A stretch of 64,000 nucleotides of DNA from Apostichopus japonicus (lineage: Eukaryota; Echinodermata; Holothuroidea; Aspidochirotida; Stichopodidae), in the NCBI RefSeq assembly GCF_037975245.1, contig NC_092569.1, positions 6,442,501 through 6,506,500 of the forward strand. Reading direction: 5' to 3'. Below the pieces are notes generated by a model. That model saw only the letters and a list, made by a program, of their open reading frames with translations, was not told the DNA's origin and made no database searches. Below, one piece after another: positions 1 to 54,960 of this stretch (positions are counted from its first letter, which is position 1; every line of letters starts with the position of its first letter). A program made the position numbers and the translations under genes.

Positions 1-3000
1 ACTACCGAACTGAAAAGCACGGAGTCCAGTAAGTCCGATATGCATATCAAATGTTACCATATATTTCGGAACAAAATGCTTTCATAGTCGTCACTGTAGT
101 GTGAGCTACCGTACCCATTGAATAGGGCTTAATACCGCCAGGTCCAATCTAAAGGTTTCCATGTTTTCCATCTCAGGTTTACCTGATGAATCAGTACAAA
201 AAATGGTTTCATCAACATCATTTCTTTTCTTCATTTGTCTCACTTGAATGTAGTTAAGACAACCAAAGAAGCAACGGAACTAAGTACTAGACCCACTACC
301 GAACTGAAAAGCACGGAGTCCAGTAAGTCCGATATGCATATCAAATGTTACCATATATTTCGGAACAAAATGCTTTCATTGTCGTCACTGTAGTGTGAGC
401 TACCGTACCCAATGAATAGGGCTTAATACCGCCAGGTCCAATCTAAAGGTTTCCATGTTTTCCATCTCAGGTTTAACTGATGAATCAGTACAAGAAATGT
501 TTTCATCAACATCATTTCTTTTCTTCATTTGTCTTACTTGAATGTAGTTAAGACAACCAAAGAAGCAACGGAACTAAGTACTAGACCCACTACCGAACTG
601 CAAAGCACGGAGTCCGGTAAGTCCGATATGCATATCAAATGTTACCATATATTTCGGAACAAAATGCTTTCATTGCCGTCACGGTAGTGTGAGCTACCCA
701 ATGAATAGGGCTTAATACCGCCAGGTCCAATCTAAAGGTTTCCATGTTTTCCATCTCAGGTTTAACTGATGAATCAGTACAAAAAATGTTTTCATCAACA
801 TCATTTCTTTTCTTCATTTGTCTTACTTGAATGTAGTTAAGACAACCAAAGAAGCAACGGAACTAAGTACTAGACCCACTACCGAACTGAAAAGCACGGA
901 GTCCAGTAAGTCCGATATGCATATCAAATGTTACCATATATTTCGGAACAAAATGCTTTCATAGTCGTCACTGTAGTGTGAGCTACCGTACCCATTGAAT
1001 AGGGCTTAATACCGCCAGGTCCAATCTAAAGGTTTCCATGTTTTCCATCTCAGGTTTACCTGATGAATCAGTACAAAAAATGGTTTCATCAACATCATTT
1101 CTTTTCTTCATTTGTCTTACTTGAATGTAGTTAAGACAACCAAAGAAGCAACGGAACTAAGTACTAGACCCACTACCGAACTGAAAAGCACGGAGTCCAG
1201 TAAGTCCGATATGCATATCAAATGTTACCATATATTTCGGAACAAAATGCTTTCATTGTCGTCACTGTAGTGTGAGCTACCGTACCCAATGAATAGGGAT
1301 TAATACCGCCAGGTCCAATCTAAAGGTTTCCATGTTTTCCATCTCAGGTTTAACTGATGAATCAGTACAAAAAATGGTTTCATCAACATCATTTCTTTTC
1401 TTCATTTGTCTTACTTGAATGTAGTTAAGACAACCAAAGAAGCAACGGAACTAGGTACTAGACCCACTACCGAACTGCAAAGCACGGAGTCCAGTAAGTC
1501 CGATATGCATATCAAATGTTACCATATATTTCGGAACAAAATGCTTTCATTGTCGTCACGGTAGTGTGAGCTACCCAATGAATAGGGCTTAATACCGCCA
1601 GGTCCAATCTAAAGGTTTCCATGCTTTCCATCTCAGGTTTAACTGATGAATCAGTACAAAAAATGTTTTCAACAACATCATTTCTTTTCTTCATTTGTCT
1701 TACTTGAATGTAGTTAAGACAACCAAAGAAGCAACGGAACTAAGTACTAGACCCACTACCGAACTGCAAAGCACGGAGTCCAGTAAGTCCGATATGCATA
1801 TCAAATGTTACCATATATGTCGGAACAAAATGCTCTCATAGTCGTCACTGTAGTGTGAGCTACCGTACCCATTGAATAGGGCTTAATACCGCCAGGTCCA
1901 ATCTAAAGGTTTCCATGTTTTCCATCTCAGGTTTAACTGATGAATCAGTACAAAAAATGTTTTCATCAACATCATTTCTTTTCTTCATTTGTCTTACTTG
2001 AATGTAGTTAAGACATCCAAAGAAGCAACGGAACTAAGTACTAGACCCACTACCGAACTGCAAAGCACGGAGTCCAGTAAGTCCGATATGCATATCAAAT
2101 GTTACCATATATTTCGGAACAAAATGCTTTCATTGTCGTCACGGTAGTGTGAGCTACCCAATGAATAGGGCTTAATACTGCCAGGTCCAATCTAAAGGTT
2201 TCCATGTTTTCCATCTCAGGTTTACCTGATGAATCAGTACAAAAAATGTTTTCATCAACATCATTTCTTTTCTTCATTTGTCTTACTTGAATGTAGTTAA
2301 GACAACCAAAGAAGCAACGGAACTAAGTACTAGACCCACTACCGAACTGAAAAGCACGGAGTCCAGTAAGTCCGATATGCATATCAAATGTTACCATATA
2401 TTTCGGAACAAAATGCTTTCATTGTCGTCACGGTAGTGTGAGCTACCCAATGAATAGGGCTTAATACCGCCAGGTCCAATCTAAAGGTTTCCATGTTTTC
2501 CATCTCAGGTTTAACTGATGAATCAGTACAAAAAATGTTTTCATCAACATCATTTCTTTTCTTCATTTGTCTTACTTGAATGTAGTTAAGACAACCAAAG
2601 AAGCAACGGAACTAAGTACTAGACCCACTACCGAACTGCAAAGCACGGAGTCCAGTAAGTCCGATATGCATATCAAATGTTACCATATATTTCGGAACAA
2701 AATGCTCTCATAGTCGTCACTGTAGTGTGAGCTACCGTACCCAATGAGTAGGGCTTAATACCGCCAGGTCCAATCTAAAGGTTTCCATGTTTTCCATCTC
2801 AGGTTTAACTGATGAATCAGTACAAAAAATGTTTCATCAACATCATTTCTTTTCTTCATTTGTCTTACTTGAATGTAGTTAAGACAACCAAAGAAGCAAC
2901 GGAACTAAGTACTAGACCCACTACCGAACTGAAAAGCACGGAGTCCAGTAAGTCCGATATGCATATCAAATGTTACCATATATTTCGGAACAAAATGCTT

Positions 3001-6000
3001 TCATTGTCGTCACGGTAGTGAGAGCTACCCAATGAATAGGGCTTAATACCGCCAGGTCCAATCTAAAGGTTTCCATGTTTTCCATCTCAGGTTTAACTGA
3101 TGAATCAGTACAAAAAATGTTTTCATCAACATCATTTCTTTTCTTCATTTGTCTTACTTGAATGTAGTTAAGACAACCAAAGAAGCAACGGAACTAAGTA
3201 CTAGACCCACTACCGAACTGCAAAGCACGGAGTCCAGTAAGTCCGATATGCATATCAAATGTTACCATATATTTCGGAACAAAATGCTTTCATAGTCGTC
3301 ACGGTAGTGTGAGCTACCCAATGAATAGGGCTTATTACCGCCAGGTCCAATCTAAAGGTTTCCATGTTTTCCATGTCAGGTTTAACTGATGAATCAGTAC
3401 AAAAAATGTTTTCATCAACATCATTTCTTTTCTTCATTTGTCTTACTTGAATGTAGTTAAGACAACCAAAGAAGCAACGGAACTAGGTACTAGACCCACT
3501 ACCGAACTGCAAACCACGGAGTCCAGTAAGTCCGATATGCATATCAAATGTTACCATATATTTCGGAACAAAATGCTTTCATTGTCGTCACGGTAGTGTG
3601 AGCTACCCAATGAATAGGGCTTAATACCGCCAGGTCCAATCTAAAGGTTTCCATGCTTTCCATCTCAGGTTTAACTGATGAATCAGTACAAAAAATGTTT
3701 TCAACAACATCATTTCTTTTCTTCATTTGTCTTACTTGAATGTAGTTAAGACAACCAAAGAAGCAACGGAACTAAGTACTAGACCCACTACCGAACTGCA
3801 AAGCACGGAGTCCAGTAAGTCCGATATGCATATCAAATGTTACCATATATTTCGGAACAAAATGCTCTCATAGTCGTCACTGTAGTGTGAGCTACCGTAC
3901 CCAATGAATAGGGCTTAATACCGCCAGGTCCAATCTAAAGGTTTCCATGTTTTCCATCTCAGGTTTAACTGATGAATCAGTACAAAAAATGTTTTCATCA
4001 ACATCATTTCTTTTCTTCATTTGTCTTACTTGAATGTAGTTAAGACATCCAAAGAAGCAACGGAACTAAGTACTAGACCCACTACCGAACTGCAAAGCAC
4101 GGAGTCCAGTAAGTCCGATATGCATATCAAATGTTACCATATATGTCGGAACAAAATGCTCTCATAGTCGTCACTGTAGTGTGAGCTACCGTACCCATTG
4201 AATAGGGCTTAATACCGCCAGGTCCAATCTAAAGGTTTCCATGTTTTCCATCTCAGGTTTAACTGATGAATCAGTACAAAAAATGTTTTCATCAACATCA
4301 TTTCTTTTCTTCATTTGTCTTACTTGAATGTAGTTAAGACATCCAAAGAAGCAACGGAACTAAGTACTAGACCCACTACCGAACTGCAAAGCACGGAGTC
4401 CAGTAAGTCCGATATGCATATCAAATGTTACCATATATTTCGGAACAAAATGCTTTCATTGTCGTCACGGTAGTGTGAGCTACCCAATGAATAGGGCTTA
4501 ATACTGCCAGGTCCAATCTAAAGGTTTCCATGTTTTCCATCTCAGGTTTACCTGATGAATCAGTACAAAAAATGTTTTCATCAACATCATTTCTTTTCTT
4601 CATTTGTCTTACTTGAATGTAGTTAAGACAACCAAAGAAGCAACGGAACTAAGTACTAGACCCACTACCGAACTGAAAAGCACGGAGTCCAGTAAGTCCG
4701 ATATGCATATCAAATGTTACCATATATTTCGGAACAAAATGCTTTCATTGTCGTCACGGTAGTGTGAGCTACCCAATGAATAGGGCTTAATACCGCCAGG
4801 TCCAATCTAAAGGTTTCCATGTTTTCCATCTCAGGTTTAACTGATGAATCAGTACAAAAAATGTTTTCATCAACATCATTTCTTTTCTTCATTTGTCTTA
4901 ATTAATTGTAGTTAAGACAACCAAAGAAGCAACGGAACTAAGGACTAGACCCACTACCGAACTGCAAAGCACGGAGTCCAGTAAGTCCGATATGCATATC
5001 AAATGTTACCATATATTTCGGAACAAAATGCTCTCATAGTCGTCACTGTAGTGTGAGCTACCGTACCCAATGAATAGGGCTTAATACCGCCAGGTCCAAT
5101 CTAACGGTTTCCATGTTTTCCATCTCAGGTTTAACTGATGAATCAGTACAAAAAATGTTTTCATCAACATCATTTCTTTTCTTCACTTGTCTTACTTGAA
5201 TGTAGTTAAGACAACCAAAGAAGCAACGGAACTAAGTACTAGACCCACTACCGAACTGAAAAGCACGGAGTCCAGTAAGTCCGATATGCATATCAAATGT
5301 TACCATATATTTCGGAAAAAAATGCTTTCATTGCCGTCACGGTAGTGTGAGCTACCCAATGAATAGGGCTTAATACCGCCAGGTCCAATCTAAAGGTTTC
5401 CATGTTTTCCATCTCAGGTTTAACTGATGAATCAGTACAAAAAATGTTTTCATCAACATCATTTCTTTTCTTCATTTGTCTTACTTGAATGTAGTTAAGA
5501 CATCCAAAGAAGCAACGGAACTAAGTACTAGACCCACTACCGAACTGCAAAGCACGGAGTCCAGTAAGTCCGATATGCATATCAAATGTTACCATATATT
5601 TCGGAACAAAATGCTCTCATAGTCGTCACTGTAGTGTGAGCTACCGTACCCAATGAATAGGGCTTAATACCGCCAGGTCCAATCTAAAGGTTTCCATGTT
5701 TTCCATCTCAGGTTTAACTGATGAATCAGTACAAAAAATGTTTCATCAACATCATTTCTTTTCTTCATTTGTCTTACTTGAATGTAGTTAAGACAACCAA
5801 AGAAGCAACGGAACTAAGTACTAGACCCACTACCGAACTGAAAAGCACGGAGTCCAGTAAGTCCGATATGCATATCAAATGTTACCATATATTTCGGAAC
5901 AAAATGCTTTCATAGTCGTCACTGTAGTGTGAGCTACCGTACCCATTGAATAGGGCTTAATACCGCCAGGTCCAATCTAAAGGTTTCCATGTTTTCCATC

Positions 6001-9000
6001 TCAGGTTTACCTGATGAATCAGTACAAAAAATGGTTTCATCAACATCATTTCTTTTCTTCATTTGTCTTACTTGAATGTAGTTAAGACAACCAAAGAAGC
6101 AACGGAACTAAGTACTAGACCCACTACCGAACTGAAAAGCACGGAGTCCAGTAAGTCCGATATGCATATCAAATGTTACCATATATTTCGGAACAAAATG
6201 CTTTCATTGTCGTCACTGTAGTGTGAGCTACCCAATGAATAGGGCTTAATACCGCCAGGTCCAATCTAAAGGTTTCCATGTTTTCCATGTCAGGTTTAAC
6301 TGATGAATCAGTACAAAAAATGTTTTCATCAACATCATTTCTTTTCTTCATTTGTCTTACTTGAATGTAGTTAAGACAACCAAAGAAGCTTCGGAACTAA
6401 GTACTAGACCCACTACCGAACTGCAAAGCACGGAGTCCAGTAAGTCCGATATGCATATCAAATGTTACCATATATTTCGGAACAAAATGCTCTCATAGTC
6501 GTCACTGTAGTGTGAGCTACCGTACCCAATGAATAGGGCTTAATACCGCCAGGTCCAATCTAAAGGTTTCCATGTTTTCCATCTCAGGTTTAACTGATGA
6601 ATCAGTACAAAAAATGTTTTCATCAACATCATTTCTTTTCTTCATTTGTCTTACTTGAATGTAGTTAAGACAACCAAAGAAGCAACGGAACTAAGTACTA
6701 GACCCACTACCGAACTGAAAAGCACGGAGTCTAGTAAGTCCGATATGCATATCAAATGTTACCATATATTTCGGAACAAAATGCTTTCATTGCCGTCACG
6801 GTAGTGTGAGCTACCGTACCCATTGAATATGGCTTAATACCGCCAGGTCCAATCTAAAGGTTTCCATGTTTTCCATCTCAGGTTTAACTGATGAATCAGT
6901 ACAAAAAATGTTTTCATCAACATCATTTCTTTTCTTCATTTGTCTTACTTGAATGTAGTTAAGACAACCAAAGAAGCAACGGAACTAAGTACTAGACCCA
7001 CTACCGAACTGCAAAGCACGGAGTCCAGTAAGTCCGATATGCATATCAAATGTTACCATATATTTCGGAACAAAATGCTCTCATAGTCGTCACTGTAGTG
7101 TGAGCTACCGTACCCAATGAATGGGGCTTAATACCGCCAGGTCCAATCTAAAGGTTTCCATGTTTTCCATCTCAGGTTTAACTGATGAATCAGTACAAAA
7201 AATGTTTTCATCAACATCATTTCTTTTCTTCATTTGTCTTACTTGAATGTAGTTAAGACAACCAAAGAAGCAACGGAACTAAGTACTAGACCCACTACCG
7301 AACTGAAAAGCACGGAGTCCAGTAAGTCCGATATGCATATCAAATGTTACCATATATTTCGGAACAAAATGCTTTCATTGCCGTCACGGTAGTGTGAGCT
7401 ACCCAATGAATAGGGCTTAATACCGCCAGGTCCAATCTAAAGGTTTCCATGTTTTCCATCTCAGGTTTAACTGATGAATCAGTACAAAAAATGTTTCATC
7501 AACATCATTTCTTTTCTTCATTTGTCTTACTTGAATGCAGTTAAGACAACCAAAGAAGCAACGGAACTAAGTACTAGACCCACTACCGAACTGAAAAGCA
7601 CGGAGTCCAGTAAGTCCGATATGCATATCAAATGTTACCATATATTTCGGAACAAAATGCTTTCATAGTCGTCACTGTAGTGTGAGCTACCGTACCCATT
7701 GAATAGGGCTTAATACCGCCAGGTCCAATCTAAAGGTTTCCATGTTTTCCATCTCAGGTTTACCTGATGAATCAGTACAAAAAATGGTTTCATCAACATC
7801 ATTTCTTTTCTTCATTTGTCTTACTTGAATGTAGTTAAGACAACCAAAGAAGCAACGGAACTAAGTACTAGACCCACTACCGAACTGAAAAGCACGGAGT
7901 CCAGTAAGTCCGATATGCATATCAAATGTTACCATATATTTCGGAACAAAATGCTTTCATTGTCGTCACTGTAGTGTGAGCTACCCAATGAATAGGGCTT
8001 AATACCGCCAGGTCCAATCTAAAGGTTTCCATGTTTTCCATCTCAGGTTTAACTGATGAATCAGTACAAAAAATGTTTTCATCAACATCATTTCTTTTCT
8101 TCATTTGTCTTACTTGAATGTAGTTAAGACAACCAAAGAAGCTTCGGAACTAAGTACTAGACCCACTACCGAACTGCAAAGCACGGAGTCCAGTAAGTCC
8201 GATATGCATATCAAATGTTACCATATATTTCGGAACAAAATGCTCTCATAGTCGTCACTGTAGTGTGAGCTACCGTACCCAATGAATAGGGCTTAATACC
8301 GCCAGGTCCAATCTAAAGGTTTCCATGTTTTCCATCTCAGGTTTAACTGATGAATCAGTACAAAAAATGTTTTCATCAACATCATTTCTTTTCTTCATTT
8401 GTCTTACTTGAATGTAGTTAAGACAACCAAAGAAGCAACGGAACTAAGTACTAGACCCACTACCGAACTGAAAAGCACGGAGTCTAGTAAGTCCGATATG
8501 CATATCAAATGTTACCATATATTTCGGAACAAAATGCTTTCATTGCCGTCACGGTAGTGTGAGCTACCGTACCCATTGAATATGGCTTAATACCGCCAGG
8601 TCCAATCTAAAGGTTTCCATGTTTTCCATCTCAGGTTTAACTGATGAATCAGTACAAAAAATGTTTTCATCAACATCATTTCTTTTCTTCATTTGTCTTA
8701 CTTGAATGTAGTTAAGACAACCAAAGAAGCAACGGAACTAAGTACTAGACCCACTACCGAACTGCAAAGCACGGAGTCCAGTAAGTCCGATATGCATATC
8801 AAATGTTACCATATATTTCGGAACAAAATGCTCTCATAGTCGTCACTGTAGTGTGAGCTACCGTACCCAATGAATGGGGCTTAATACCGCCAGGTCCAAT
8901 CTAAAGGTTTCCATGTTTTCCATCTCAGGTTTAACTGATGAATCAGTACAAAAAATGTTTTCATCAACATCATTTCTTTTCTTCATTTGTCTTACTTGAA

Positions 9001-10310
9001 TGTAGTTAAGACAACCAAAGAAGCAACGGAACTAAGTACTAGACCCACTACCGAACTGAAAAGCACGGAGTCCAGTAAGTCCGATATGCATATCAAATGT
9101 TACCATATATTTCGGAACAAAATGCTTTCATTGCCGTCACGGTAGTGTGAGCTACCCAATGAATAGGGCTTAATACCGCCAGGTCCAATCTAAAGGTTTC
9201 CATGTTTTCCATCTCAGGTTTAACTGATGAATCAGTACAAAAAATGTTTTCATCAACATCATTTCTTTTCTTCATTTGTCTTACTTGAATGTAGTTAAGA
9301 CATCCAAAGAAGCAACGGAACTAAGTACTAGACCCACTACCGAACTGAAAAGCACGGAGTCCAGTAAGTCCGATATGCATATCAAATGTTACCATATATT
9401 TCGGAACAAAATGCTCTCATAGTCGTCACTGTTGTGTGAGCTACCGTACCCATTGAATAGGGCTTAATACCGCCAGGTCCAATCTAAAGGTTTCCATGTT
9501 TTCCATCTCAGGTTTAACTGATGAATCAGTACAAAAAATGTTTCATCAACATCATTTCTTTTCTTCATTTGTCTTACTTGAATGTAGTTAAGACAACCAA
9601 AGAAGCAACGGAACTAAGTACTAGACCCACTACCGAACTGAAAAGCACGGAGTCCAGTAAGTCCGATATGCATATCAAATGTTACCATATATTTCGGAAC
9701 AAAATGCTTTCATTGCCGTCACGGTAGTGAGAGCTACCCAATGAATAGGGCTTAATACCGCCAGGTCCAATCTAAAGGTTTCCATGTTTTCCATCTCAGG
9801 TTTAACTGATGAATCAGTACAAAAAATGTTTTCATCAACATCATTTCTTTTCTTCATTTGTCTTACTTGAATGTAGTTAAGACAACCAAAGAAGCAACGG
9901 AACTAAGTACTAGACCCACTACCGAACTGCAAAGCACGGAGTCCAGTAAGTCCGATATGCATATCAAATGTTACCATATATTTCGGAACAAAATGCTTTC
10001 ATAGTCGTCACGGTAGTGTGAGCTACCCAATGAATAGGGCTTATTACCGCCAGGTCCAATCTAAAGGTTTCCATGTTTTCCATGTCAGGTTTAACTGATG
10101 AATAACTACAAAAAATGTTTTCATCAACATCATTTCTTTTCTTCATTTGTCTCACTTGAATGTAGTTAAGACAACCAAAGAAACAACGGAACTAAGTACT
10201 AGACCCACTACCGAACTGCAAAGCACGGAGTCCAGTAAGTCCGATATGTATATCAAATGTTACCATATATTTCGGAACAAAATGCTCCCATAGTCGTCAC
10301 GGTATTGTGA
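1..10310 (+). repeat. Tandem array of 36 stalk-exon units (289/294 bp each)
   Basis: Each unit holds a polypyrimidine tract, acceptor (gaatgtag), a 69-bp exon and a gtaagtcc donor, then about 220 bp of intron. Exon starts: (1), 254, 548, 837, 1131, 1425, 1714, 2008, 2297, 2586, 2879, 3168, 3457, 3746, 4040, 4334, 4623, 4912, 5206, 5495, 5788, 6082, 6371, 6665, 6959, 7253, 7541, 7835, 8124, 8418, 8712, 9006, 9295, 9588, 9877, 10166; all full copies are 69 bp. Exons are phase 1 at both ends, so any number keeps frame. The encoded unit starts KTTKEATELSTRPTTELQST and has 10 Thr/Ser in 23 residues, with Lys and Glu but no Asn: a mucin-like, O-glycosylation-prone stalk. None of the 36 copies contains a stop. 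Rare changes are mostly single residues (Ser to Gly, Ser to Arg, Thr to Ser). Two length classes differ by a 5-bp indel near 'gagctacc(gtacc)caatga'. Confidence 0.9.
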
Positions 10311-11929
10311 GCTATCATATATATATTTTCACGACTTAGCGGTACATGCAAATTGAATAAAAAAACAATCATATATTCTTGTGAAAATTCAATGGTTATG
10401 TCTCGATTTAATCAACTCGCAGGTACATTTGTTCCTACGTGCCCTACGAACATGATCTACGGAACCTGTAGTTGCCAAGCAACATGTGAAGATCCCAACG
10501 GACAATCTGGTTGTAATAGTGACTGTTTGGGAAGTGAGGGCTGTGCCTGTCCAGCTGGTTTCTTAATGCAAGGGAGTGACTGCATCAGTGCGAGTGAATG
10601 CGGGTGTTTCGTAGCAGAGGCCAACTTGGTTATACCAGTGAGTATTTGCATGATCAAAATATCACGTGCCTGTGCAAACGAATCAGAAATGAACTTAAGC
10701 TAACGGACTTTGCGATAACACAAAATGTAAGTATAAAGTCCATTGTTTTATAAATGACATTTTTATATTTTCATCTATTCAATTCAAGAATGGGGAAACA
10801 TACGTTAACGATGACTGCACACAAAAGTGTTCTTGTAACAATAACCAACTGATCTGTGAAGATGACTACAGCTGTAGTACCGATGCTGTGTGTGATCTGA
10901 AGAATGGAGTACGACAGTGTTATTGTAATGAAGGATATGAAGGTGATGGTGAAACTTGTGTATGTTTGTATACAGACTGTAAGGATGTCTACGACGCTGG
11001 TCATACAGAAGATGGCGTTTACACAGTCCTTCCATCTAGATGGCCCGGTCCAGCGTTCAGTGTCTACTGTAAAATGGATAATGGTGGAGGATGGACTGTA
11101 AGTTATTACAGCATAAATCAACTTTGTATGAGAGTATAGTATAAAGTGTATTTTCAAACAGTTGTATTGCCTGATAATCAAAAATAACCTTTTACAACGA
11201 ATTTAGAAAATGCTTCAAATAATGATTATTAAACAAAAATATATCCATAGCCTATTAGTGGTGTAATTCATAAGTTCCCAAGAGACTGTTTAACATTTAT
11301 GTTACTCAGCGCCTTCCCTTAGAGGTCCATTTAGATCATTTCGCTGCCTTTCTCTTATTCAGGTTTTTCAACGTCGCAGTGGTGGCAGTACTAGTTTTTA
11401 TCGAAACTGGGCTGCGTATAAAAATGGTTTTGGTGATATCAATGTGGATTTCTGGCTTGGGAATGAGAAACTTTATTACTTGACAAATCAGAAATATTAC
11501 TCGCTTCGCTTCGATGTTACTACTTCAAATAGATACTCCAAATATGCTTTATATTCGGAGTTCCGAATAATGTCAGAGAGCCATAACTACAGACTCGACA
11601 GACTTGGCAGCCATAGCGGAACTACAGGTTTGTCAAGCCCTCTTCTAATTTCCCCATTTTAATATGTTTCACTCTAAGCCACCACAAAAGACAGACAGAT
11701 CGATACGCCAAGTAACTGTGATATTTATTAAATGCCTTCAGTATTCTAAAGCGGTCGGCCGTGTTATGAGACCTGGGCATACTCGTAAAACGATAAAAGA
11801 AGATAGCACCTTTAAATAATAGGAAAAAAAGGAAAATATAGGCCCTTTCATATCAGAAATTTGTTTTCGGTCATACGCTTTAGTTGTCGTGTTTTATTTG
11901 TATCTATCTATCTATATATATATAAATAT

Positions 11930-11978
<49 letters not shown>

Positions 11979-12448
11979 GAAATGGCATATCCAAAATATA
12001 GGTAAACCTATAAGTGATCTTCATACTTGCATTGTAAACAAGTAAATATATTCCGCGATGTACTGTTTTTTCAAGTTAATTATATGGAATCCTCGTCGAT
12101 GAACCGTCCTAATTGTCTGTTCCTTTGGCAGGTACACGTTTTCTCAATAACAACAAGGGCAAAGATTTCAGCACGTATGATGAAGACAATGATGGATGTG
12201 ATAAATACAACTGCGCGTACAGACACAGAGGGGGTTGGTGGCATTCGGGTAATTGGTGCAATTATTGCAATAGTGGTAGTAATCATTGTGACCAATTCCA
12301 CTACACAGGAGAATCAAGCTGTTACACCGTTTGTACCAGTGAAAATCTTAATGGTTACTACAACGGGGCCCATGGACAGAACATCTTCTCTAACCACGAT
12401 TCCTACTGCGATATAACCTTTACCGAGATGAAAATTCGGCCGACTTAA
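1..12448 (+). CDS. FREP-1: fibrinogen-related protein with giant repeated-exon stalk (5' end outside window)
   Basis: Secreted FREP/lectin-type protein, inferred from the paralog FREP-3, which has a signal peptide. Visible coding exons are the 36 stalk exons (first cut by the window edge, 1-28; last 10166-10234), then 10423-10637, 10789-11097, 11363-11627 and 12132-12448, with TAA at 12446-12448. Joined, they keep one open frame of 1182 codons plus stop (3549 nt). Order: about 830 residues of Thr/Ser-rich stalk, TIL module, TILa and EGF-like region, then an FBG domain with [22 protein letters not shown] (calcium-site-like acidic loop) and terminal EMKIRP. The stalk exon and TIL exon share a split codon (A+GT). 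Signal peptide and first exons must lie upstream of base 1. The family is linked to innate recognition; the ligand is unknown. It is unseen how many stalk exons enter the mature mRNA. Confidence 0.85.
10423..10637 (+). CDS. FREP-1 TIL (trypsin-inhibitor-like Cys-rich) exon
   Basis: 215-bp exon, phase 1 in and phase 0 out; acceptor cgcag, donor gtgagt. It encodes a cysteine-rich module opening with [16 protein letters not shown], with later GCACPAGF and CISASECGC, matching the TIL fold known from zonadhesin/FCGBP-type proteins. It ends in VIP, which continues into [10 protein letters not shown] in the next exon (TILa-like). It is base-for-base identical to the corresponding FREP-3 exon. Confidence 0.85.
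10789..11097 (+). CDS. FREP-1 TILa / EGF-like / start of fibrinogen domain exon
   Basis: 309-bp phase 0-0 exon (103 codons). It starts [16 protein letters not shown] (TILa-like), continues with an EGF-like stretch ending [12 protein letters not shown], then enters the FBG domain: [28 protein letters not shown]. The same exon size and splice sites occur in all three paralogs here. Differences from FREP-3 include Asp/Asn, Gln/Lys, Tyr/Ser, Glu/Lys and SR/TE. Confidence 0.85.
11363..11627 (+). CDS. FREP-1 fibrinogen domain, middle exon
   Basis: 265-bp exon, phase 0 in and phase 1 out, following a ttcag acceptor. It encodes VFQRRSGGSTSFYRNWAAY and [14 protein letters not shown], classic FBG core motifs, and ends ...GTTG at an ACAG|gtttgt donor. 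By eye it differs from the FREP-3 exon at 14 bases, of which 12 change the amino acid. Confidence 0.85.
11901..11976. repeat. TA-rich microsatellite in last intron of FREP-1
   Basis: ATCT then (TA)n with interspersed A residues. The matching intron of FREP-3 has a much longer TA tract (41205-41463). Confidence 0.9.
12132..12448 (+). CDS. FREP-1 fibrinogen domain, terminal exon
   Basis: 317-bp terminal exon after a ttggcag acceptor, ending in TAA. It contains FSTYDEDND (putative calcium loop), GGWWHSGNWC, the ENLNG motif and the C-terminal EMKIRPT typical of FBG domains. Extra cysteines (NYC, HCDQF, CYTVC) suggest additional disulfides compared with vertebrate ficolin-type domains; that disulfide reading is inference. 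Confidence 0.85.
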
Positions 12449-12661
12449 ACGTAATGACTTCAAACATACTTGAATATTTAGTCTAACGAGTCAGATTAAC
12501 TGTTTGAACCAAACCATTAACAAATAGAGCGGCTAAACGTTGAATTGAAGCAGCTTTGTTCATGTGGTTCATTCAGCTTTCAAAACTGATCATTAATTAT
12601 ACTAAAACTAACATCAATGGATTTCATGAGCTCGATTATTATGTCAAAATTCAATTTCGAA

Positions 12662-12667
12662 AATAAA
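12662..12667 (+). promoter_or_regulatory. Possible polyadenylation signal AATAAA of FREP-1
   Basis: AATAAA 214 bp downstream of the FREP-1 stop; the same signal sits at the matching place after FREP-3 (42134-42139). The cleavage site is not visible. Confidence 0.45.
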
Positions 12668-13832
12668 ACTGCAAAAAAATACATTCTGAAACTTTCTGAT
12701 ATTCTCTGTATGTGACAATCACGTGTCTGGGCGTCAGGCGATTTCAAATAGGATATTATCATGTATGCAATTAAACTTTAGCATTCGTGGAAACGTGGTG
12801 ATATAAGCTTGAAGCTGCTGAATTTCCTTACCATCATTATTTTCCTGATTTGAGTTTCCATGATCCTCAATCAATAACTCAATCAGAAAACATTTATATA
12901 GCCCCAATATCAACAGCAGTTGCACGAAGGCGCTAAAAGACATTTACATGTAGTTAACGTCTCTTTTCCTGGGAAAATGAGAGGCGTCATCGATGATATC
13001 GTGCACGTCATCAGATCACGAGATGAACACTGGATGAGAATCCGTCTGTGGTCAAATCTCGGGGGACCACACATAACAGCTTGCGGGTTTGATGACGACC
13101 GCGTTATTTGCATGTGAATACAGTGTTAATTAACTAAGGACCTAAGTACTTATTATCCAAATATTTCTTAAATGTACTTCAAAATATATTGAAAAGTAAG
13201 GAAATTGAACTATACTCATCAAACATATCTAAATTCCATGGAACAATAACTGCTCGATAAACCATCAAAGTGTTAATTTGATAATTGGTATCACGTAGTT
13301 TCCTGTAATTCGATACTAATTCCTTATGTTTATAGGAGTGTGGAAATGACGGAATAAAAAAAAAGGTATTCTGAAAGATACAATAGAGTATTATGATCAC
13401 CACTGCGTGTCAACAAGTTGTGAGGCTATAGCGTCGTTTATTATAATAGTAATTGATCTTTTATTGATTTCATCAGAAATGCCCTTCTTTCTTGTAAATG
13501 AAATGTAATATTATATCTATATTTATGTTATCATGTGGAAATCATTAGAGTTTAAATTAAATTGGCAATCATTGTTTAATTTTGTTGCTTTTGTTTTACG
13601 TTGTTACTTAACAAGGAGAAAGGGTGGTTCAGTTGCGTAACGCCAGGATGCTGAGGGGATGGATGGGAGAAGGGCAACCGGGACCCCAGAGGCTTAAACC
13701 CTTGAGCCTGAAGCAAACCTTAATACGCTTCACACTGCGTTCAAAAGTAGCAGTTTGCCATCATCACAAAATGTGGAAACCGAATATTTTGCTCAAGAGG
13801 GAAGGTTATTCTGACGATCATTACGTCAGTAC
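12668..13832. other. FREP-1 3' flank, no gene seen
   Basis: AT-rich sequence with a collinear counterpart at 42140-43256. Short open frames differ or break between the two copies, so I see no coding region here. Confidence 0.6.
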
Positions 13833-14995
13833 ATCTGGCTCTGTCAGTATATATGGTCCTACAAGTGTATATGGTTGGTCATATATCTGGCCCTGTCAGT
13901 ATATCTTGGTCCTGTCAGTATATCTGCCCTGTCAGTACATGCAGCAAAACCAGTATATCTGACCTTGTCAGTATATCTGACCCTTTTAGTACATGCGGCA
14001 CAGCAAGTATATCTGGCCTTGTCAGTATAACTGGCCCTGTCAGTATATATCTGGTCGTGTCAGTATGTCTCCCCCTGTCAGTACATGCGGCACATCCAGA
14101 TTATCTAGCCTTGTCAGCACACGCGGCACAGCCAGTTTATCTGGCCCTGTCAGTATATGGCCTTGTCAGTATATTTGACCCTGTCAGTATATATCTGGCC
14201 CTCTCAGCGGCACAGCCAGTATATCTGGCCTTGTCAGTACATGCAACATAGTCAGTATATCTGGCTCTGGCAGTATATCTGGCTCTGACAGTACATGCGG
14301 CACATCCAGTTAATCTGGCTCTGGCAGTATATCTGGCTCTGACAGTACATGCAGCACATCCAGTTAATATGGCCCTGGCAGTATATCTGGCTTGTCAGTA
14401 TATCTGGGCCTGTAAGTATTTCTGGCCTTATCAGTAAATCTGGCCCTAACAGTACATGCGGCACAGCCAGTTTATCTTGCCCTATCAGTATATCTGTCCC
14501 TAACAGTACATGCAGCACATCCAGTTAATATGGCCCTGGCAGAAAATCTGGCTTGTCAGTATATCTGGGCTTGTAAGTATTTCTGGCCTTATCAGTAAAT
14601 CTGGCCCTAACAGTACATGCGGCACAGCCAGTATATCTGGCCCCATCAGTATATCTGGCCCTGTCAGTATATCTGGCCTTGTCAGTATATCTGGCCTTGT
14701 CAGTATATCTGGCCTTGTCATTATATCTGGCCCTGCCAGTATATCTGGCCCTGACATTAAATGTGTCATCGCCAGTATATCTGGCCCTGTCAGTACATGC
14801 GGCACAGCAAGTTTATCTGGCCCTGTCAGTTCATGCGATTGAGCCAGTATATCTGGCCCTGGCAGTATACTTGGCCTTGTCAGTATATCTGGCTCTGTCA
14901 GTATATCTGACCCTGTTAGTATATCTGGCCCTGTCAGTATATCTGGCCCTGACATTAAATATGTCACAGCCAGTATATCTGGCCTGTAAGTTCAT
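13833..14995. repeat. 18-bp satellite downstream of FREP-1
   Basis: Degenerate tandem copies of CAGTATATCTGGCCCTGT, interrupted by a variant module around 'agtacatgcggcacagc'. Because 18 is divisible by 3, several frames stay open on both strands (runs such as SISGPV or TGPDIL); these are repeat artefacts, not genes. The counterpart is at 43257-44235. Confidence 0.9.
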
Positions 14996-16082: not shown

Positions 16083-16205
16083 GAATTCTTTCACGCGGTA
16101 TAGAGGCACTTAGCACGCATTACCGTGATAATGACGCTTACGGTAATTTCAACTGTGATGAGAGACACCGTAGCGATTGGTGGCACTCGCATTCTTGGTT
16201 CATTG
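16083..16205 (+). pseudogene. Broken FREP terminal-exon fragment (copy A)
   Basis: In one frame it reads LSTHYRDNDAYGNFNC then DERHRSDWWHSHSW, clearly related to [16 protein letters not shown] and HRSGWWHSNTW of the FREP-2 last exon. Similarity stops near 16205 and a LINE 3' end begins about 50 bp later. The cysteine-rich end and EMKIRP terminus are missing and no upstream FREP exon lies nearby, so this is a truncated relic. Confidence 0.7.
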
Positions 16206-19073: not shown

Positions 19074-19143
19074 ATGAAGAGAAAGAAATTTTTTCAGCTT
19101 TTCTATTTAGCACTAATCATCATCGATATGACGGATGCCGGAA
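19074..19143 (+). CDS. FREP-2 signal-peptide exon
   Basis: 70 nt from ATG, ending phase 1 at A|gtaagt. It encodes Met-Lys-Arg-Lys-Lys, a hydrophobic core LFYLALIII and an Ala-Gly cleavage-like end. Exon 1 of FREP-3 has the same length and phase, which fixes the start. Confidence 0.75.
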
Positions 19144-20098
19144 GTAAGTATATATTTTTACATGATCATAAGAATTGTGTATTCCATTTTTCTTTCTTTT
19201 TACCATAAACAAAATAACAATATGTTGAGTCTCTTTAAGTCTCCCGTGGGGGTTGTCAGGCTGTCTTGGTTGAAGAATTTGAGCATACATAAAGTACATC
19301 TTGTTCTGTTCTCAATTTCGTTTCTGTTTGATTAACTATGTAGACTTCCACTTTTCTTTATCACACTATTCTTAGACATACTGCAGCAGATTTGAAGTTC
19401 TTCTAATGGCTTATTTTAGTAACCTTGTGAAACAAGAGCAACGTGAGCAAGGCAACTTTCACAACATTTCGCCAATTTCGAGCAAGGATTCTTCACTCTT
19501 GTGGGGCCTCGAACTGCTTGAATATTAACATATTTACCCTTCCCTATTCGTGTATCCGTCTAGATTACAGGTTACCTATATTTTACTAACTTCTGTATGT
19601 TTATCTAGGTTTTTTGTGATATTAGAGTCACACCAGTTGATTTCTAGAAATATGCTGTGTTTACAGTTCCTAGGTCAGTTAATATATGACAACTTAAATT
19701 TCGTTTACAAAAGTTAACCTTATGCCTAAGGAATACGTTTCATCAGAACTTGAGTCTAGTTCTAGATGGTTGTACAAGAGAAATAGTATCACAAACCTGA
19801 CAAATAGATTAGTTATCTAAAGTTACACCACATAACTGGCCATCATACCCAGAAACGCTTCTTCTCTCTTAGTATACAGACAACTAGTTCAATATGCAAA
19901 GAAACACATCTGGACTGGAATTTGCAGTACGAGAACTGCTGCCAAATGCATCATTTAAGGTTTGACGATTCCAATATTGGTTTTTTATACCATCCGAATT
20001 TAAAATTTACTTATTTACTTTTTAATTCCATGTTCTGTTCTGATTTGTGCTTGTACATGTAGCTGCTTCTGATGTTTCTTCATTTTTTGTATTCATAG

Positions 20099-20164
20099 GA
20101 TTGTGTGACTTTGCTTCGAAATTTCCATGTAAAGGAAGTCACTGTTTACCTTCGCCTGGTAAAT
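20099..20164 (+). CDS. FREP-2 exon 2, short Cys-containing module
   Basis: 66-bp phase 1-1 exon encoding [20 protein letters not shown]. The FREP-3 equivalent (37758-37826) reads [20 protein letters not shown]. Function unknown; conserved cysteines suggest a small disulfide-bonded N-terminal cap or oligomerisation point (inference). Confidence 0.7.
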
Positions 20165-20759
20165 GTAAGTAAAAATATGCAGAACACAAAATGTTGACAA
20201 ACTATGGTTTATATTATAAGAAGTTTAACATGCCAAAAAGTTGATGTATTTCCGTTGCCTGTGTTACAAGTTGTTTTGAAACTCGACGTGAACCTAGCTC
20301 GTTTAAGTTTTATTTCAACCAAAAATACTGGTACAAAACTCCATTGTTTTAGAGACATCACTTAAGACCGGTATTTGTTGGTTCGTTATTATATCTTCAT
20401 GATCTGCGTGCATAAATTCATTAGTTAAACTTTATATAACAAATTTCTGTCACCAAAGACACGTCATCCTCCTCACTTCAATTTGAAAATATTCTTTCAT
20501 TTCATTATCTTTTTTTTTTAAAAACAAGGTCTTGATTTGGAAAAATAAAGTATAGGTCTAGAAGATATTGTCCCTTAGAACAGGCTTGTAAATTTGTACA
20601 ATATTTACATTATTAACAATATTCTGTCTATAAAGACAGCCACTTCAAACATCCGCTTCTCTTCCTTGTTTGGTCTGTTAAGATAACATCATGTTAATTT
20701 ATTTGTGTTGTGAGTGATATTCTTATTTGCGACTATCTTAGACCACTTTAATATGAAAA

Positions 20760-21458
20760 CTGAGAACTGTAGTGCAAACTAATCAGAAAGAGGGCTTAAT
20801 TCAACAATATTCTCTTTCCATTTAATTGAACTCACTTTACAGCATTTATGTTAATACAAACTTGTCACTAAACATCCTTACTATCCTTTTTTCTAGGTGA
20901 GGCAATGCAAGAAACAAAGGAACCAAATACTGCAATGGCCACTGAACCACAAAACACGACTTCATGTAAGTCCCGTAGTATCACACGCATTGTTATAATA
21001 TCAGGTAACAATATTTAAAACCACTTTAATTATGCATTAGTTTGCAATTTTTATGACTAAGTTCCTGTTATGTAGTGAGTGGGTCATGACTATAGAAGAG
21101 ATTATTAAATTATGATACACAGACATATCATTTTATTATTATCTGTTTCATGGGGAATACGATAACAATTAAGCTGCTAATTTATATATGTTGTTAATGA
21201 TATTCTTATTTTCCACCGTCTCATGCCATCTTCTTACTAAACAAGATAAGTCTATAGTCTAAACTGAAGTGCAAGCAACCAGAAAGAGGGCTTAATTAAA
21301 TACAGTTCTCTTTCCAATTAATTGAACCCACTTTACAGCATTTATATTAATACAAAATTGTCACCAAACATCCTTCCTATCCTATAAAGGTAAGACAATG
21401 CAAGATACAAAACAACAAACTACTGCAGTCACTACTGAACCACAAAGCTCCACTCTAG
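20760..21458 (+). repeat. FREP-2 duplicated stalk-exon unit (two copies, 493 bp apart)
   Basis: Exons 20897-20965 and 21390-21458 are both 69 bp, phase 1-1, with GTAAGT donors, encoding EAMQETKEPNTAMATEPQNT... and KTMQDTKQQTTAVTTEPQSS.... About 130 bp of preceding intron is duplicated too ('agaaagagggcttaatt...ctctttcca', 'ttgtcac.aaacatcctt'). The motif agggcttaat also occurs in every FREP-1 unit, pointing to a common ancestral repeat. Confidence 0.8.
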
Positions 21459-21647
21459 GTAAGTCACGTAGCATGTTACTACTAATATCATGTAATTATA
21501 TAAGTGATCAGTGATTTATTAACATGCTTTCTTTCAAGTTGCAATCAGCTTTCCGTCGTTTAGTTCATATTAAGATGATACGACATGGAAATATGTAAAA
21601 AAAAAATCATGAGATTTCAATGCTTAACTGCTCTTATCTCCATGCAG

Positions 21648-21862
21648 GTTCTTTGATGTATACGTGTCCTCCGAACATGATCTATGGAAACTGCACTTGT
21701 GAAGCAACATGTGAAGATCCCAAAGGAGAGTCCGCTTGTAAAAGTACCTGTTTAGCTAGTAAGGGCTGTATCTGCAAAGCTGGCTTAATGCTGAATGGAA
21801 GTGACTGTATCAGTGCGAGTAGATGCAGCTGTTTCGTTACAGATGTCAACTTGGTTATATCG
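21648..21862 (+). CDS. FREP-2 TIL exon
   Basis: 215 bp, phase 1 to 0, same size as in the paralogs. It encodes CPPNMIYGNCTCEATCEDP and GCICKAGLMLNGSDC, with the TIL cysteine pattern kept. Confidence 0.8.
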
Positions 21863-22007
21863 GTGAGCTATTGTGACATCTATTTAAATGTCAGCTGACA
21901 ATTTAACGATTTTCCCTTTAAATGGATATTTGATCACATCATTTAATTAATCTTACGACATTTGTGTTAAGGCTACCAATGTATAGATTACATTTCATCT
22001 GTTTTAG

Positions 22008-22316
22008 AATGGAGAAACATACGTTAACGAAAACTGCACCCAGAAGTGTTCCTGTAGCAATAACCGATTGATTTGTGAGGATGACTACAACTGTAGTATC
22101 AATGCTATGTGTGATGTCAAGAATGAAGTACGACAGTGTTATTGTAATGAAGGATATGAAGGTGAAGGTGAAATTTGTGAATCCTTGTACACAGACTGCC
22201 AGGATGTATATGACGATGGAGAGAATCCAGATGGCGTATATACAATCATACCTACTGGATGACATGGTTTACCATTCAACGTATCTTGTAAAATGGAAAA
22301 CGGTGGAGGATGGACC
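22008..22316 (+). pseudogene. FREP-2 TILa/EGF/FBG-start exon with premature TGA
   Basis: 309 bp as in the paralogs, with NGETYVNENCTQKCSC and CNEGYEGEGEIC. TGA at 22260-22262 falls at the Trp of the paralogous sequence [11 protein letters not shown]. The frame is open again to CKMENGGGWT and the gtaagt donor. Confidence 0.8.
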
Positions 22317-22675
22317 GTAAGTCTTTATTGAACAACATGAATGTTTCAACTGTGTATATGTGAGGTATAATGATTAAGTCTATAGCAGACGCTAATGGAA
22401 GTACGAGTTTCGGTTTTCAGTTTTGTTGCACTTTTATAATTCCTTACCAGGGATCGAGTATAACTTAAAAATACTTTAGTAGATGAAAAGGATGACAATC
22501 CTAAAAAATTGCCCTCCCCCTAAAGAAAGAAAGGAAGTCCTACGTTCTTTATACTGAAATAATATTTGTTAAATATATATTCGTTTGGTATTTCGTAAGT
22601 TAAATTTTCCTGTTAGTATGATTCAACTGCTCGCCCATCATTACCTTTCATTATTTTGACCCGCTATCCTTTCAG

Positions 22676-22938
22676 GTGTTTCAACGTCGTACTGATGGCT
22701 CTACTAGTTTTTTATCAAAACTGGACTGCGTATAAAGAAGGGTTTGGTGACAGCAGGAACTTATGGCTGGCAAATGAAAAGCTCCATTACTGGACGAACC
22801 AGAGAAACTACAAGCTTCGCTTTGACATCACTACTTCTAGTGGATCGGCTTTATATGCTGAATATACAGAGTTTCAAATACAGTCTGAAAGCAATTACTT
22901 CACAATGAATAAACTGGGCAGTAGCATTGGAAATACAG
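22676..22938 (+). pseudogene. FREP-2 middle FBG exon with +1 frameshift
   Basis: 263 bp against 265 in FREP-1 and FREP-3: one codon shorter plus one extra T in the run after 'actag' (22708-22713). Reading starts VFQRRTDGSTSF and resumes one frame over as YQNWTAYKEGFGD, ending SSIGNTG at ACAG|gtttgt. Confidence 0.8.
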
Positions 22939-24014
22939 GTTTGTTGCATACTTGTTATTTGCGCCTCTCCTTGGATAGTAGGTCAAGTTAGAATTACTTG
23001 TTATGTTCACACTAAACTTCATGAGAAAATGGTCGTCACGGTTCCACCACATTTTGATGTTAAAAATTACCAACAAATTATGTATAAGTACACTTGAACA
23101 GAAACCCTTACAACAACAATCCCCCTCCTCATTTCACACTTCACACTTCTCCAGTTGTATCGACGAGAAAATTATATAGTTTATCATCCATTTCAGGGTA
23201 TGTATGATCAGTGTCGCGCATTAACTAGAAAGCAAAAACCGATAGAAACAGAACAAGTGATGAAGTAATCAAAAATACCATGTTGTTGTTGATTTGTATC
23301 TCCCTTTCAACCATCTCAAGTAGTTGTAATTGATGTAAAGAAGCGCCTTTTTACTTTCGCAAGTTTTGATTTTATCATCTTGGAAAAGCAAAGAACGCTT
23401 TCTTTCGAATGGGATTTGAGCCAGTAATCTCAGGATTTCTTTACAAAAATCAATTTGCAAACAATCTCGTCCTATCTGGGCTCATTACTTTAAATAGACC
23501 GTATAGTGTTAGATATTTATCCTATACACATATCAATTCGATATCATTGGTATCACTGACAAAATATTGAAGTAGTCTGACCAGCAGATGAATTTGAACG
23601 TATGCAGAAATAGCAAGCATCAGTATAAGAGCAGGACATATTATGGAAGAGAAATACGACTATATATCTTCACAGAACCAGTAAAAGAGAATTAAAAATT
23701 GAGGGCGTGCAGTAAACACACACTATTAGCAGAATAATGATTAGTATAACATCTGTAAAACAATATAATCAAGAAGAGCCATACACCGTGATTCAAGACA
23801 AAGACCACCCGAGACATAGATAAAATTACAAATATTAAAAAATAATAACTAAATAAAAACTAGTTAATGGAAAGCCCATGATTGAGCTCTCCGTTAGGAC
23901 AGAATACAATTTTTACTAATTTTATCATAATATTCAATATCTGAATAAAACAAACTGTTAGCAAACTGCTTATCCACTGAAGAGCCTGTGTAATATAATA
24001 TGTAAACGTAATAG

Positions 24015-24165
24015 GGCGTGACGTCTTGATCCTAGCAGGATCCTCCTCATAGGCCGAATGACAAATTATAGTGACAAGTTACAGAAACAGAAGGGACCCT
24101 TCCGTTACTGTAACTTGTAATTCGGCCTCTGAGGAGTATCCTGCTAGGATCGAAACGTCCGACCC
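24015..24165. repeat. ~150-bp foldback repeat in FREP-2 last intron
   Basis: Left arm (24019-24059, 'gatcctagcaggat...aggccgaat') and right arm (24119-24160, 'attcggcct...atcctgctaggat') are nearly perfect reverse complements. The pairing continues inward through 'acaagttacag' and 'ctgtaacttgt'. Confidence 0.8.
24122..24165 (+). ncRNA. Hammerhead-ribozyme-like motif (right arm of foldback)
   Basis: Contains CTGAGGA (core CUGANGA, 24129-24135), stem II ATCCT/AGGAT with a GCT loop, GAAA (24152-24155) and a following CGTC cleavage-like site. The left arm has the degenerate reverse-complement version lacking the CUGA and GAAA cores. Such motifs are known in the terminal repeats of Penelope-like elements; activity is not shown. 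Confidence 0.45.
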
Positions 24166-24510
24166 TCTGACTTTTACGCAATAAGTAATATCAACAGACA
24201 ATATTCTCCTGTTGGCAAGCATAGTTTGTATGTTAATTTACATCAGTTTATTTAAATCCACCTCGATTCAGAAGGAAACCTAATTTAAATTAAGAACAGT
24301 AAAGAATAAATCAGCACTTGAAATATAATGAATTCTGAATCTCTTTCAAGGTAATCCTCCCCTCCCTCCCCTCCCTCCCCACCCTCCTTTCTTCCCAGTA
24401 CATTGTGAAACTTATTTATTATCAAAAGTGTGCAATATATCAGGATACGTACGCTATTGTTTATTGTACTAGCATTAATTACTGATGGTTCTTACTATCT
24501 TACCTCACAG

Positions 24511-24809
24511 GTAATTTTTTCGAATACAGTAGAGGAAAACAATTCAGCACTTATGACAGAGACAATGACGCATGTGGTATCTACAACTGTGCAGAGAAGC
24601 ACAGAAGCGGCTGGTGGCACTCGAATACTTGGTGTCGGTGCTTTTCTACTTACAATTGCGATTATTTCCAATACAGCAGCAGCTGTACGTCAGGTTGTAC
24701 TTATGAAAACCTCAACGGTGTCTACGATGGTAACAACGGAGAAAACACTTTCTCTAATGCTAACTGCAACCTCCAATTCGTTGAGATGAAAATTCGACCG
24801 TCCTCTTAA
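24511..24809 (+). CDS. FREP-2 terminal FBG exon (open in its own frame)
   Basis: After a ctcacag acceptor, phase 1 in: [47 protein letters not shown], then TAA at 24807-24809. There are no lesions in this exon. Confidence 0.75.
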
Positions 24810-33234: not shown

Positions 33235-34508
33235 CTGGAGCCAGCACTGTTTAATTTGCCTTATCCTTACGTTATCCTCACGATGAGAGTACTCTCACAC
33301 ATAATGATCGCATCTTGTACATCGCAGTTACGTCACATAATTGAGGATGCGGTGTTGTTATATCTGCACAAAGTTTACTCTCATTTAGATAATGGTAGAC
33401 AGTCTACGAGATCTACTTTTATAGACTTTTCTAGTGCATTCAACAAAATTGTCCCCCACTTACGGCTAAATTAATCGCATACTGTGTATCTCCCCGAATT
33501 ACCCTATGGATTCATGATTTCCTTAGAAATAGACCTCAGAGGGTGAAGGTAGGCGATGTCTAATCAGGGGAAATGATTTTAAGTGTAGGTGCGCCTCAGG
33601 GCTGTGTCCTCTCCCCATGATTTTTTCCCTGTATACCAGCGACTGTCAGAGTATGACCAGTGATTGTAGCGTCATCAAATATGCGGATGATATTGTCATT
33701 ACTGGTTACCTGTCAGATGACATTGACTCATACGCCACCACGATTGTAAGGTTTGTCCAGTGGTGCGATGATCATTTGTTACAACTTAATTTAATGTGTC
33801 CAAAACTAAGGAGCTGATTATGGATTGCGTCGCAAGCCAGTAACTCACGCTCCCATTTATGTTCATGGGGAACACGTAGAAGATAAGTAGATACAAGAAC
33901 CATGCTGAGTAACAAAATTGACTGGTCTAGTAATGTCACAATTGTACATAAGAAATCAAACCAGAGGCTGTATTTCTTGAGAAAACTGAAGAACCTCAGA
34001 GTGGATAAAAACAATCATGACCTTGTTCAATAAATCCCTCATTCAAAGTGTTTTGATGTATAACATAATTTGTTACTTTGCCAATGTTACAAGAATCGAT
34101 GTGAAGATGACTGAGCAATCTAGGAAAGTTGTTCAGCGGGTTAATTGTTGTTCACTTACCTCCGTTAGACTGCTCGTATATCATGAGAGAGTCTGCAATA
34201 CATTGAAACAAATCATGCAAGACCCAACACCCCTTGTTTGAGCACTACATTTACAACCCCTCTGGACTGCGTTTATGCCCACCACGTACACTTGGGGCCC
34301 GCTACAGATACTAATATGTGCCTAATTATATCCATATATTAAATTCACAAGTGAGAAGATAAGTTTCTTATTTGTAGGACTTGCTGTATATATGTTTGTA
34401 ATACTATACTTGTATCGCAGTCTATTGATACTTATACTATTGCTTTTTTTTCTTTTACGACCTGTGTAAGCCGAATTTCCTATTCTGGGAAATAAGTTCA
34501 ATTCAATA
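33235..34508 (+). mobile_element. LINE reverse-transcriptase remnant
   Basis: Successive frames give the RT core: STFIDFSSAFNKIVPHL, WIHDFLRNRPQRVKVGDV, GAPQGCVLSP, IKYADDIVITG (YADD catalytic box) and FVQWCDDHLLQLNL, followed by the C-terminal region. Frameshifts and stops interrupt it. It ends near 'aaataagttcaattcaat', a usual LINE tail form. It stops about 150 bp before the FREP-3 promoter boxes. Confidence 0.8.
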
Positions 34509-34785: not shown

Positions 34786-34855
34786 ATGAAGAGAAAGATG
34801 TTTTTTCAACTTTTCTTTTTGGAAGTGATCGTCATCGGTACGGTGCAAGCCGGAA
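34786..34855 (+). CDS. FREP-3 signal-peptide exon
   Basis: 70 nt, phase 1 end at A|gtaagt. It has a basic N-terminus MKRK, hydrophobic core and an Ala-Gly end. Confidence 0.85.
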
Positions 34856-41377: not shown

Positions 41378-41448
<71 letters not shown>

Positions 41449-52535: not shown

Positions 52536-52658
52536 GAATTCTTTCACGCGGTATAGAGGCACTTAGCACGCATGACCGTGATAATGACGCTTACGGTAAT
52601 TTCAACTGTGCTGAGAGACACCGTAGCGATTGGTGGCACTCGCATTCTTGGTTCATTG
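52536..52658 (+). pseudogene. Broken FREP terminal-exon fragment (copy B)
   Basis: Same relic as 16083-16205: LSTHDRDNDAYGNFNC, AERHRSDWWHSHSW. This copy keeps THDRDND and a cysteine-alanine closer to the functional FSTYDRDND...NCA, so copy A has changed more. Confidence 0.7.

Positions 52659-54926: not shown

Positions 54927-54960
<34 letters not shown>

Follow-up and report, generated by a model that had tools for sequence, protein, structure and literature searches.

A 65-copy array of in-frame stalk exons in a fibrinogen-domain gene of the sea cucumber Apostichopus japonicus

Gene A of the sea cucumber Apostichopus japonicus, a fibrinogen-related gene, carries a tandem array of 65 in-frame 69-bp exons that is predicted to encode its stalk. 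The 3' part of the array lies at the left end of the window analysed here, a 64 kb stretch of contig NC_092569.1 (C9:6442501-6506500; parent assembly 671.6 Mb in 35 contigs), and window coordinates are used throughout, negative positions lying left of the window start. Exon anatomy, reading frame, copy numbers in the assembly and near-exact block duplications are observed directly, and the account we prefer, with a probability of about 0.6, is that the product of gene A is secreted and probably multimeric, a fibrinogen-domain protein with a very long exon-array stalk whose length was changed by the copying of cassettes. Each stalk exon would be a self-contained 23-residue cassette, carried on a 290-bp intron-exon unit and able to join any other in frame, and unequal exchange or block duplication among the near-identical units would alter the number of cassettes and hence the length of the arm. 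The count in gene A most likely rose from about two or three, as in the neighbouring genes B, C and D, to 65, A probably having grown rather than B having shrunk. Most of the 65 exons would be spliced into the mRNA (use of all of them is plausible), the stalk would be O-glycosylated and extended, the N-terminal cysteines may multimerise the protein, the fibrinogen head would bind ligands and alleles may differ in stalk length. A putative lectin or immune-effector role is suggested by the fibrinogen domain alone.

Tandem Repeats Finder (TRF) reports a single array at 1-10314 (period 294, 35.4 copies, 96% matches), and this, taken with the matching of exon length and phase in the paralogous gene C, argues that the array is not a product of chance. 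Within the window its exons occupy 1-10234 and comprise the last 28 bases (1-28) of an exon that the left edge truncates, followed by 35 complete exons of 69 bp, the first at 254-322 and the last at 10166-10234, spaced at 288-294 bp; the 36 exons counted by an earlier note on this DNA are thus borne out. The window edge falls inside the array, which extends 8.5 kb further left, and the whole runs from C9:6433961 (window coordinate -8539, where the first stalk exon of gene A starts) to C9:6452734. Of its exons 35 have their start inside the window; the other 30, among them the truncated one, begin in the 40 kb examined on the left. The observation is therefore confirmed and is larger than first described, for the stalk of the whole gene comes to 1,495 residues and not the approximately 830 then proposed. 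All 65 exons are 69 bp long, in phase 1-1 and free of stops, with AG before and GTAAGT after, on units of about 290 bp, and so the claims that the frame is unbroken across the array and that any subset of exons keeps it both stand. For the 35 complete exons of the window, GTAAGTCC follows directly 3' in every case, and TAG stands directly 5' in 34 and CAG in one. Isoleucine, expected at every stalk junction, is formed at 33 of the 34 stalk-stalk junctions in the window, the other being a valine where exon 548-616 ends in G, while the last stalk exon joins the TIL exon through A+GT as the serine that had been predicted. The description of an exon-level minisatellite in a fibrinogen-related gene, with array length setting potential stalk length, is supported.

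The remaining exons of gene A, all on the forward strand as are those of genes B and C given below, complete a continuous coding sequence. The signal-peptide exon is at C9:6429879 and the cysteine-module exon at -9658 to -9590; downstream of the array come the TIL exon (10423-10637, phase 1 in and 0 out), an exon with TILa, an EGF-like part and the start of the fibrinogen domain (10789-11097), fibrinogen_C exon 1 (11363-11627) and fibrinogen_C exon 2 with a Cys-rich insert and the stop codon (12132-12448). Spliced in silico the gene has 71 exons and 1,909 codons from the ATG to one terminal stop, and encodes in order a signal peptide, a four-cysteine module, the 1,495-residue Thr/Ser-rich stalk (Thr plus Ser 43%, acidic 17%, basic 15%), TIL, TILa, an EGF-like part and fibrinogen_C. 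Neither a cysteine nor an N-glycosylation sequon occurs anywhere in the stalk. Pfam recognises TIL, TILa and fibrinogen_C in gene A, the fibrinogen_C match (PF00147) having an E value of 6.4e-46 there and 1e-49 in gene B, and EGF_3 reaches 29.0 bits in gene B against a cut-off of 28.5 and falls below it in gene A at 25.7. From the signal peptide through the TIL exon of gene B no Pfam match other than TIL is found. Comparison with solved structures places the TIL-TILa stretch near the repeats of FCGBP and the head near angiopoietin, techylectin and ficolin.

With their C-terminal fibrinogen_C domain the gene products fit the fibrinogen-related domain protein (FReD) type. Molluscan fibrinogen-related proteins (FREPs) have one or two immunoglobulin superfamily (IgSF) domains and a fibrinogen domain, and FReMs have an EGF-like and a fibrinogen domain, according to the part of PMC7588048 available. 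Pfam gives no IgSF match in gene B from signal peptide to stop, nor in gene A from TIL to stop, and so the gene B protein is of the FReD type; the label FREP in the earlier note holds for the fibrinogen domain and not in its molluscan sense.

Gene B (34786-41918) is open throughout, with the exon order and phases of gene A, and because of its upstream phase-1 exon and open frame the stalk phase and exon order are fixed independently of the array. Its exons are those for the signal peptide (34786-34855), the cysteine module (37758-37826, identical to that of gene A), three stalk exons (38873-38941, 39173-39241 and 39464-39532) and, by Pfam, TIL (39723-39937), TILa/EGF (40089-40397), fibrinogen_C exon 1 (40665-40929) and fibrinogen_C exon 2 with the stop codon (41608-41918). 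Gene C (19074-24809) has a signal-peptide exon (19074-19143), a cysteine-module exon (20099-20164), two 69-bp phase 1-1 stalk exons (20897-20965 and 21390-21458) and TIL, TILa/EGF and fibrinogen exons (21648-24809), and looks damaged: a TGA stands in frame at 22260, and fibrinogen exon 1 has a shifted frame. Its two stalk exons differ from the third of gene B at 24 and 25 of 69 bases, and yet length and phase are kept. Gene D, to the left of the window, likewise has two homologous 69-bp stalk exons; its first donor reads AATAAGT as against AGTAAGT in A, B and C, and its EGF-exon match is fragmented. Along the contig the genes stand in the order D-A-C-B, D resembling C and A resembling B, as would be expected had a block of two genes been duplicated in tandem. 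Across 304 kb (E 1e-6) A-type units occur only in genes A and B, and C-type units are confined to C and D.

Change in stalk length is seen between these neighbouring paralogs, with counts of 65, 3, 2 and 2 for A, B, C and D, at the level of the gene and not of the allele. Within gene A, units 12-17 (of 65) are an exact copy of units 7-12, and a recent block duplication at 5788-9005 has five units (5788-7252) repeated at 7541-9005, units 50-54 and 56-60 differing at 0, 1, 0, 0 and 0 positions, against a mean difference of 7.5-9.4 alignment columns between units at lags of 1 to 12. The 65 units, of which the last is cut short, comprise 47 distinct sequences. Near-exact multi-unit repeats of this sort point to the duplication of blocks or to unequal exchange, and this mechanism for changing length is well supported.

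Comparison of A with B suggests where exons were gained or lost. Left of and into the array, 12 bins covering -13281 to -8482 hold 51 differences in 4,784 bases; on its right, from 10235 to 13800, there are 174 in 3,513. These sums omit the outermost left bin (13/250, rich in gaps) and a remainder of 11 bases (0/11), and the right bins include exons. The unequal divergence indicates that A and B are mosaics with a switch near the array. The closest relatives are A exon 1 with B exon 1 and A exon 65 with B exon 3, A exon 2 resembling B exon 2, and by these relationships the inner exons of A would be either gained by A or lost by B. The presence of two stalk exons in both C and D favours expansion in A over contraction in B, although this is not proof. 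In a tree of units the interior of the array is not resolved; B2 and B3 share an open fork with A units, B1 falls outside and the C units are set apart with full support.

The head differs between A and B more than the noncoding DNA around it. Of 309 bases compared in the second fibrinogen exon 35 differ, a higher rate than in two introns plus the 3' flank (74 of 1,726; P = 6e-6) or in all noncoding sequence (98 of 2,124; P = 1e-5). The intron directly before this exon is also raised (24/398), the exon still being higher (P = 0.013), and so some share of conversion or mosaic origin in the divergence of the head is indicated. Changes concentrate in the Cys-rich insert before the ENLNG motif (12132-12448 compared with 41608-41918), where nonsynonymous and synonymous divergence (dN and dS) are 0.24 and 0.07, with 15 nonsynonymous changes and one synonymous. 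This suggests either rapid evolution, as under diversifying selection, close to the side on which the ligand would be expected from ficolin-type structures, or conversion from an unseen paralog.

A stronger version of the account, which we hold as tentative, is that gene A makes a recognition protein of the host whose arm can be adjusted. The array would be hypermutable in length, and individuals, and also transcripts through choice of exons, would put the same fast-evolving head on arms of tens to about 1,500 residues, making the gene a host-side counterpart of SmPoMuc, a parasite mucin considered below.

Against the preferred account, that of a very long coding stalk changed by cassette copying, stand several properties of the stalk exons, which speak for a neutral minisatellite within a gene. 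On that explanation amplification would be satellite-like, most copies would be skipped, the stalk would be short as in B and the open frames would simply be inherited from recent founders. Exon and intron diversity are alike, at 0.0204 and 0.0204 in 34 window units, 0.0241 and 0.0189 in 62 inner units and 0.0347 and 0.0231 in 64 units, and when 69-nt windows are slid along the unit no constraint signal appears, the exon window ranking 205 of 294 for diversity. Array variants are 6 synonymous, 15 nonsynonymous and 0 stop, where 51:145:8 is the random expectation; the pooled ratio of nonsynonymous to synonymous differences (pN/pS) in six of ten stalk-exon comparisons is 0.158/0.197 = 0.8, near neutral, and substitutions in pooled comparisons are as frequent in exon (40/276) as in intron (130/827; P = 0.70). 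With diversity and variant ratios so close to neutral, the array itself shows no constraint at the protein level. Acceptors are also weak: scored over 15 bases with human consensus frequencies, which may not be those of this animal, stalk acceptors have a median of about 0 bits (68th percentile). Those of A and B lie between -1.6 and 2.1 bits, whereas the acceptors of the TIL, fibrinogen and cysteine-module exons reach 4.5-11.3. The EGF exon acceptor scores 0.9 bits and the two of the gene C stalk 9.8 and 2.7.

Some results go the other way. Of eight unit comparisons, four when pooled give no gap run in 276 exon columns but 14 in 827 columns of intron (Fisher P = 0.027), and the remaining four likewise have no exon gaps. 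All 65 exons are intact, the diverged exons of C and D preserve both frame and length, and the stalk acceptors of gene B are equally weak although it has no other stalk exons to use. From 33 of 225 variable intron columns and 4 variable intron gap runs it was estimated by hand that only some two to three disrupting variants would be expected in the inner exons under neutrality, and so that none is seen is weak evidence (P about 0.07). A scan of openness found 64 of 678 window-frame combinations without a stop in each of the 36 units compared (34 from A and 2 from B); 59 of these 64 run from the exon frame, but with units so nearly identical this adds little. Under simulated neutral drift the exon would remain open in roughly half of cases once 30 changes had accumulated. 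The stalk exons are thus coding by their anatomy and not by a strong signal of selection. We regard the neutral minisatellite as rather unlikely.

The splice module that the earlier note saw in every unit is upheld for the AG, the GTAAGT and the pyrimidine tract, the 15-base acceptor score being the weak point: stalk donors are at the 98th percentile of window GTs, and the pyrimidine tract (-6 to -35) and AG-free zone at the 98th and 95th percentiles of window AGs. A further difficulty for full use of the array is a CAG about 77 nt upstream of the stalk exons, which scores 8.0-10.7 bits in the ten A units listed and 10.7-11.9 in gene B, as against about 0 for the exon's own acceptor. Weak acceptors beside a stronger upstream CAG make partial inclusion of stalk exons plausible. 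They might also mean regulated or poison splicing, in which competition from the upstream acceptor mostly adds a stop or frame shift and the array would govern how much productive transcript is made more than how long the stalk is; an exon extended to the upstream CAG is open and in frame in just 5 of 65 A units (0 of 35 in the window) and in B3, and retention of the intron brings a stop in 64 of 64. A motif lying within a homogenised intron needs no function, however, and with scores that derive from the human consensus we regard this as improbable. Folding of one unit against 200 shuffles gave no strong signal for RNA structure as a splice regulator, the unit being only slightly better than the shuffles (z -1.45), 15 of which did equally well.

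That the copy number is inflated by misassembly or by the joining of two haplotypes, as the exact 5-unit repeat might be taken to indicate, is also improbable given 47 distinct sequences with variants in order, no runs of N and unique flanks on both sides within one 37-Mb contig. The least probable explanation is that gene A is unexpressed or decaying, a state that the damage described above suggests for C and D. Although A-B dN/dS is 1.09 over TIL-fibrinogen, the 71 exons of A have neither a stop nor a frame break; in TIL-EGF dN/dS is 0.43, on few changes (4 synonymous, 7 nonsynonymous), and a single insert in the head accounts for 15 of the 49 nonsynonymous changes.

An array of the kind preferred here for gene A is not new in its arrangement. 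In SmPoMuc of Schistosoma mansoni, as described in the accessible part of PMC2576457, exon 2 (27 bp) and its introns are tandemly repeated in units of about 1 kb, with at most about 20 copies, and repeat number in transcripts varies from 1 to 100. The likeness extends to repeats that code for a variable-number region with predicted glycosylation and to a clustered multigene family subject to recombination, and the gene A array is of this kind in that exon and flanking intron are repeated head to tail and homogenised. Unlike gene A, SmPoMuc is a parasite mucin, with no fibrinogen head mentioned in that part of the source, and its transcript variation is demonstrated. The human IGHG3 hinge likewise forms a region of an immune molecule from repeated exons, two to five of them, the number differing between alleles (PMC8674132, in part); it differs in having no more than five copies, in being an immunoglobulin and in that allelic variation is proven. 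Spider silk and the Coccidioides protein SOWgp are named as similar exon-intron repeats under concerted evolution (PMC2576457, same part), and are structural or surface proteins, unlike the fibrinogen-domain stalk of gene A. Dscam-type arrays consist of mutually exclusive alternative exons of different sequence with competing RNA structures; the exons of gene A are near-identical, and the fold of one unit is the slightly favoured one given above.

Sea cucumber FREPs occur in tandem clusters (PMC5638244, in part). FREPs and FReMs share the fibrinogen domain with genes A and B, in which no IgSF domain was found over the stretches searched above, and a TIL-TILa neck with an exon-array stalk is not mentioned for them in the portions of PMC7588048 and PMC5638244 available. 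The likeness to FCGBP is limited to the neck, the head of gene A matching angiopoietin, techylectin and ficolin. Among the literature matches listed (titles and abstract openings, most subscription papers being outside the search) no fibrinogen-related gene with a stalk-exon array is described. The novelty supposed by the earlier note thus holds in that literature for a FREP-type gene and fails for the general kind, already described in SmPoMuc and IGHG3; what is new is the size of the array (65) and its place, in the stalk of a fibrinogen-domain protein.

If spliced as predicted, gene A would be an extreme case of protein length set by a minisatellite, the unit of which is a whole splice module, in a family of recognition proteins. 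Genes A and B, otherwise close neighbours with 65 and 3 stalk exons, would offer a clean system for relating arm length to the reach and multivalency of the head, and gene A also poses the question of quite how a spliceosome handles dozens of near-identical exons. Exon-repeat arrays are hard to assemble, as stated for SmPoMuc (PMC2576457, same part), and so similar genes may be overlooked elsewhere.

In the wider locus the 304 kb examined contain extra TIL/EGF/fibrinogen exons left of D (32-57% identical to those of gene A) and one inverted TIL/EGF/fibrinogen set on the right (32-60%). At C9:6310645-6402945 lie more distant TIL/EGF/fibrinogen genes with a stretch like fibrinogen exon 1 before TIL, perhaps in place of the stalk, and one such stretch carries an in-frame stop. 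An Rfam search of the window gave no match, and of ten neighbouring open reading frames (ORFs) compared with Pfam eight had none, one was the fibrinogen exon of gene C and one, at 33533-33814, had a weak reverse-transcriptase (RVT_1) match under the cut-off. An 18-bp minisatellite (GTCAGTATATCTGGCCCT; TRF) lies downstream of both gene A (13825-14984) and gene B (43256-44230), and fragments of fibrinogen exon 2 at 16109-16198 and 52562-52651 are probably the remains of a gene, copied when the block was duplicated. Some 7.2 kb downstream of gene B (45283-52479) are missing at the matching place after gene A (near 16030); TTGTT stands at both edges of this segment, as in a mobile-element insertion, and five of its ORFs tested had no Pfam match. 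A two-copy repeat of 89% identity occupies 37187-37560 and 57422-57792, and at 54716-55118 there is a tetranucleotide run of about 100 GACG copies (TRF) with GATG variants.

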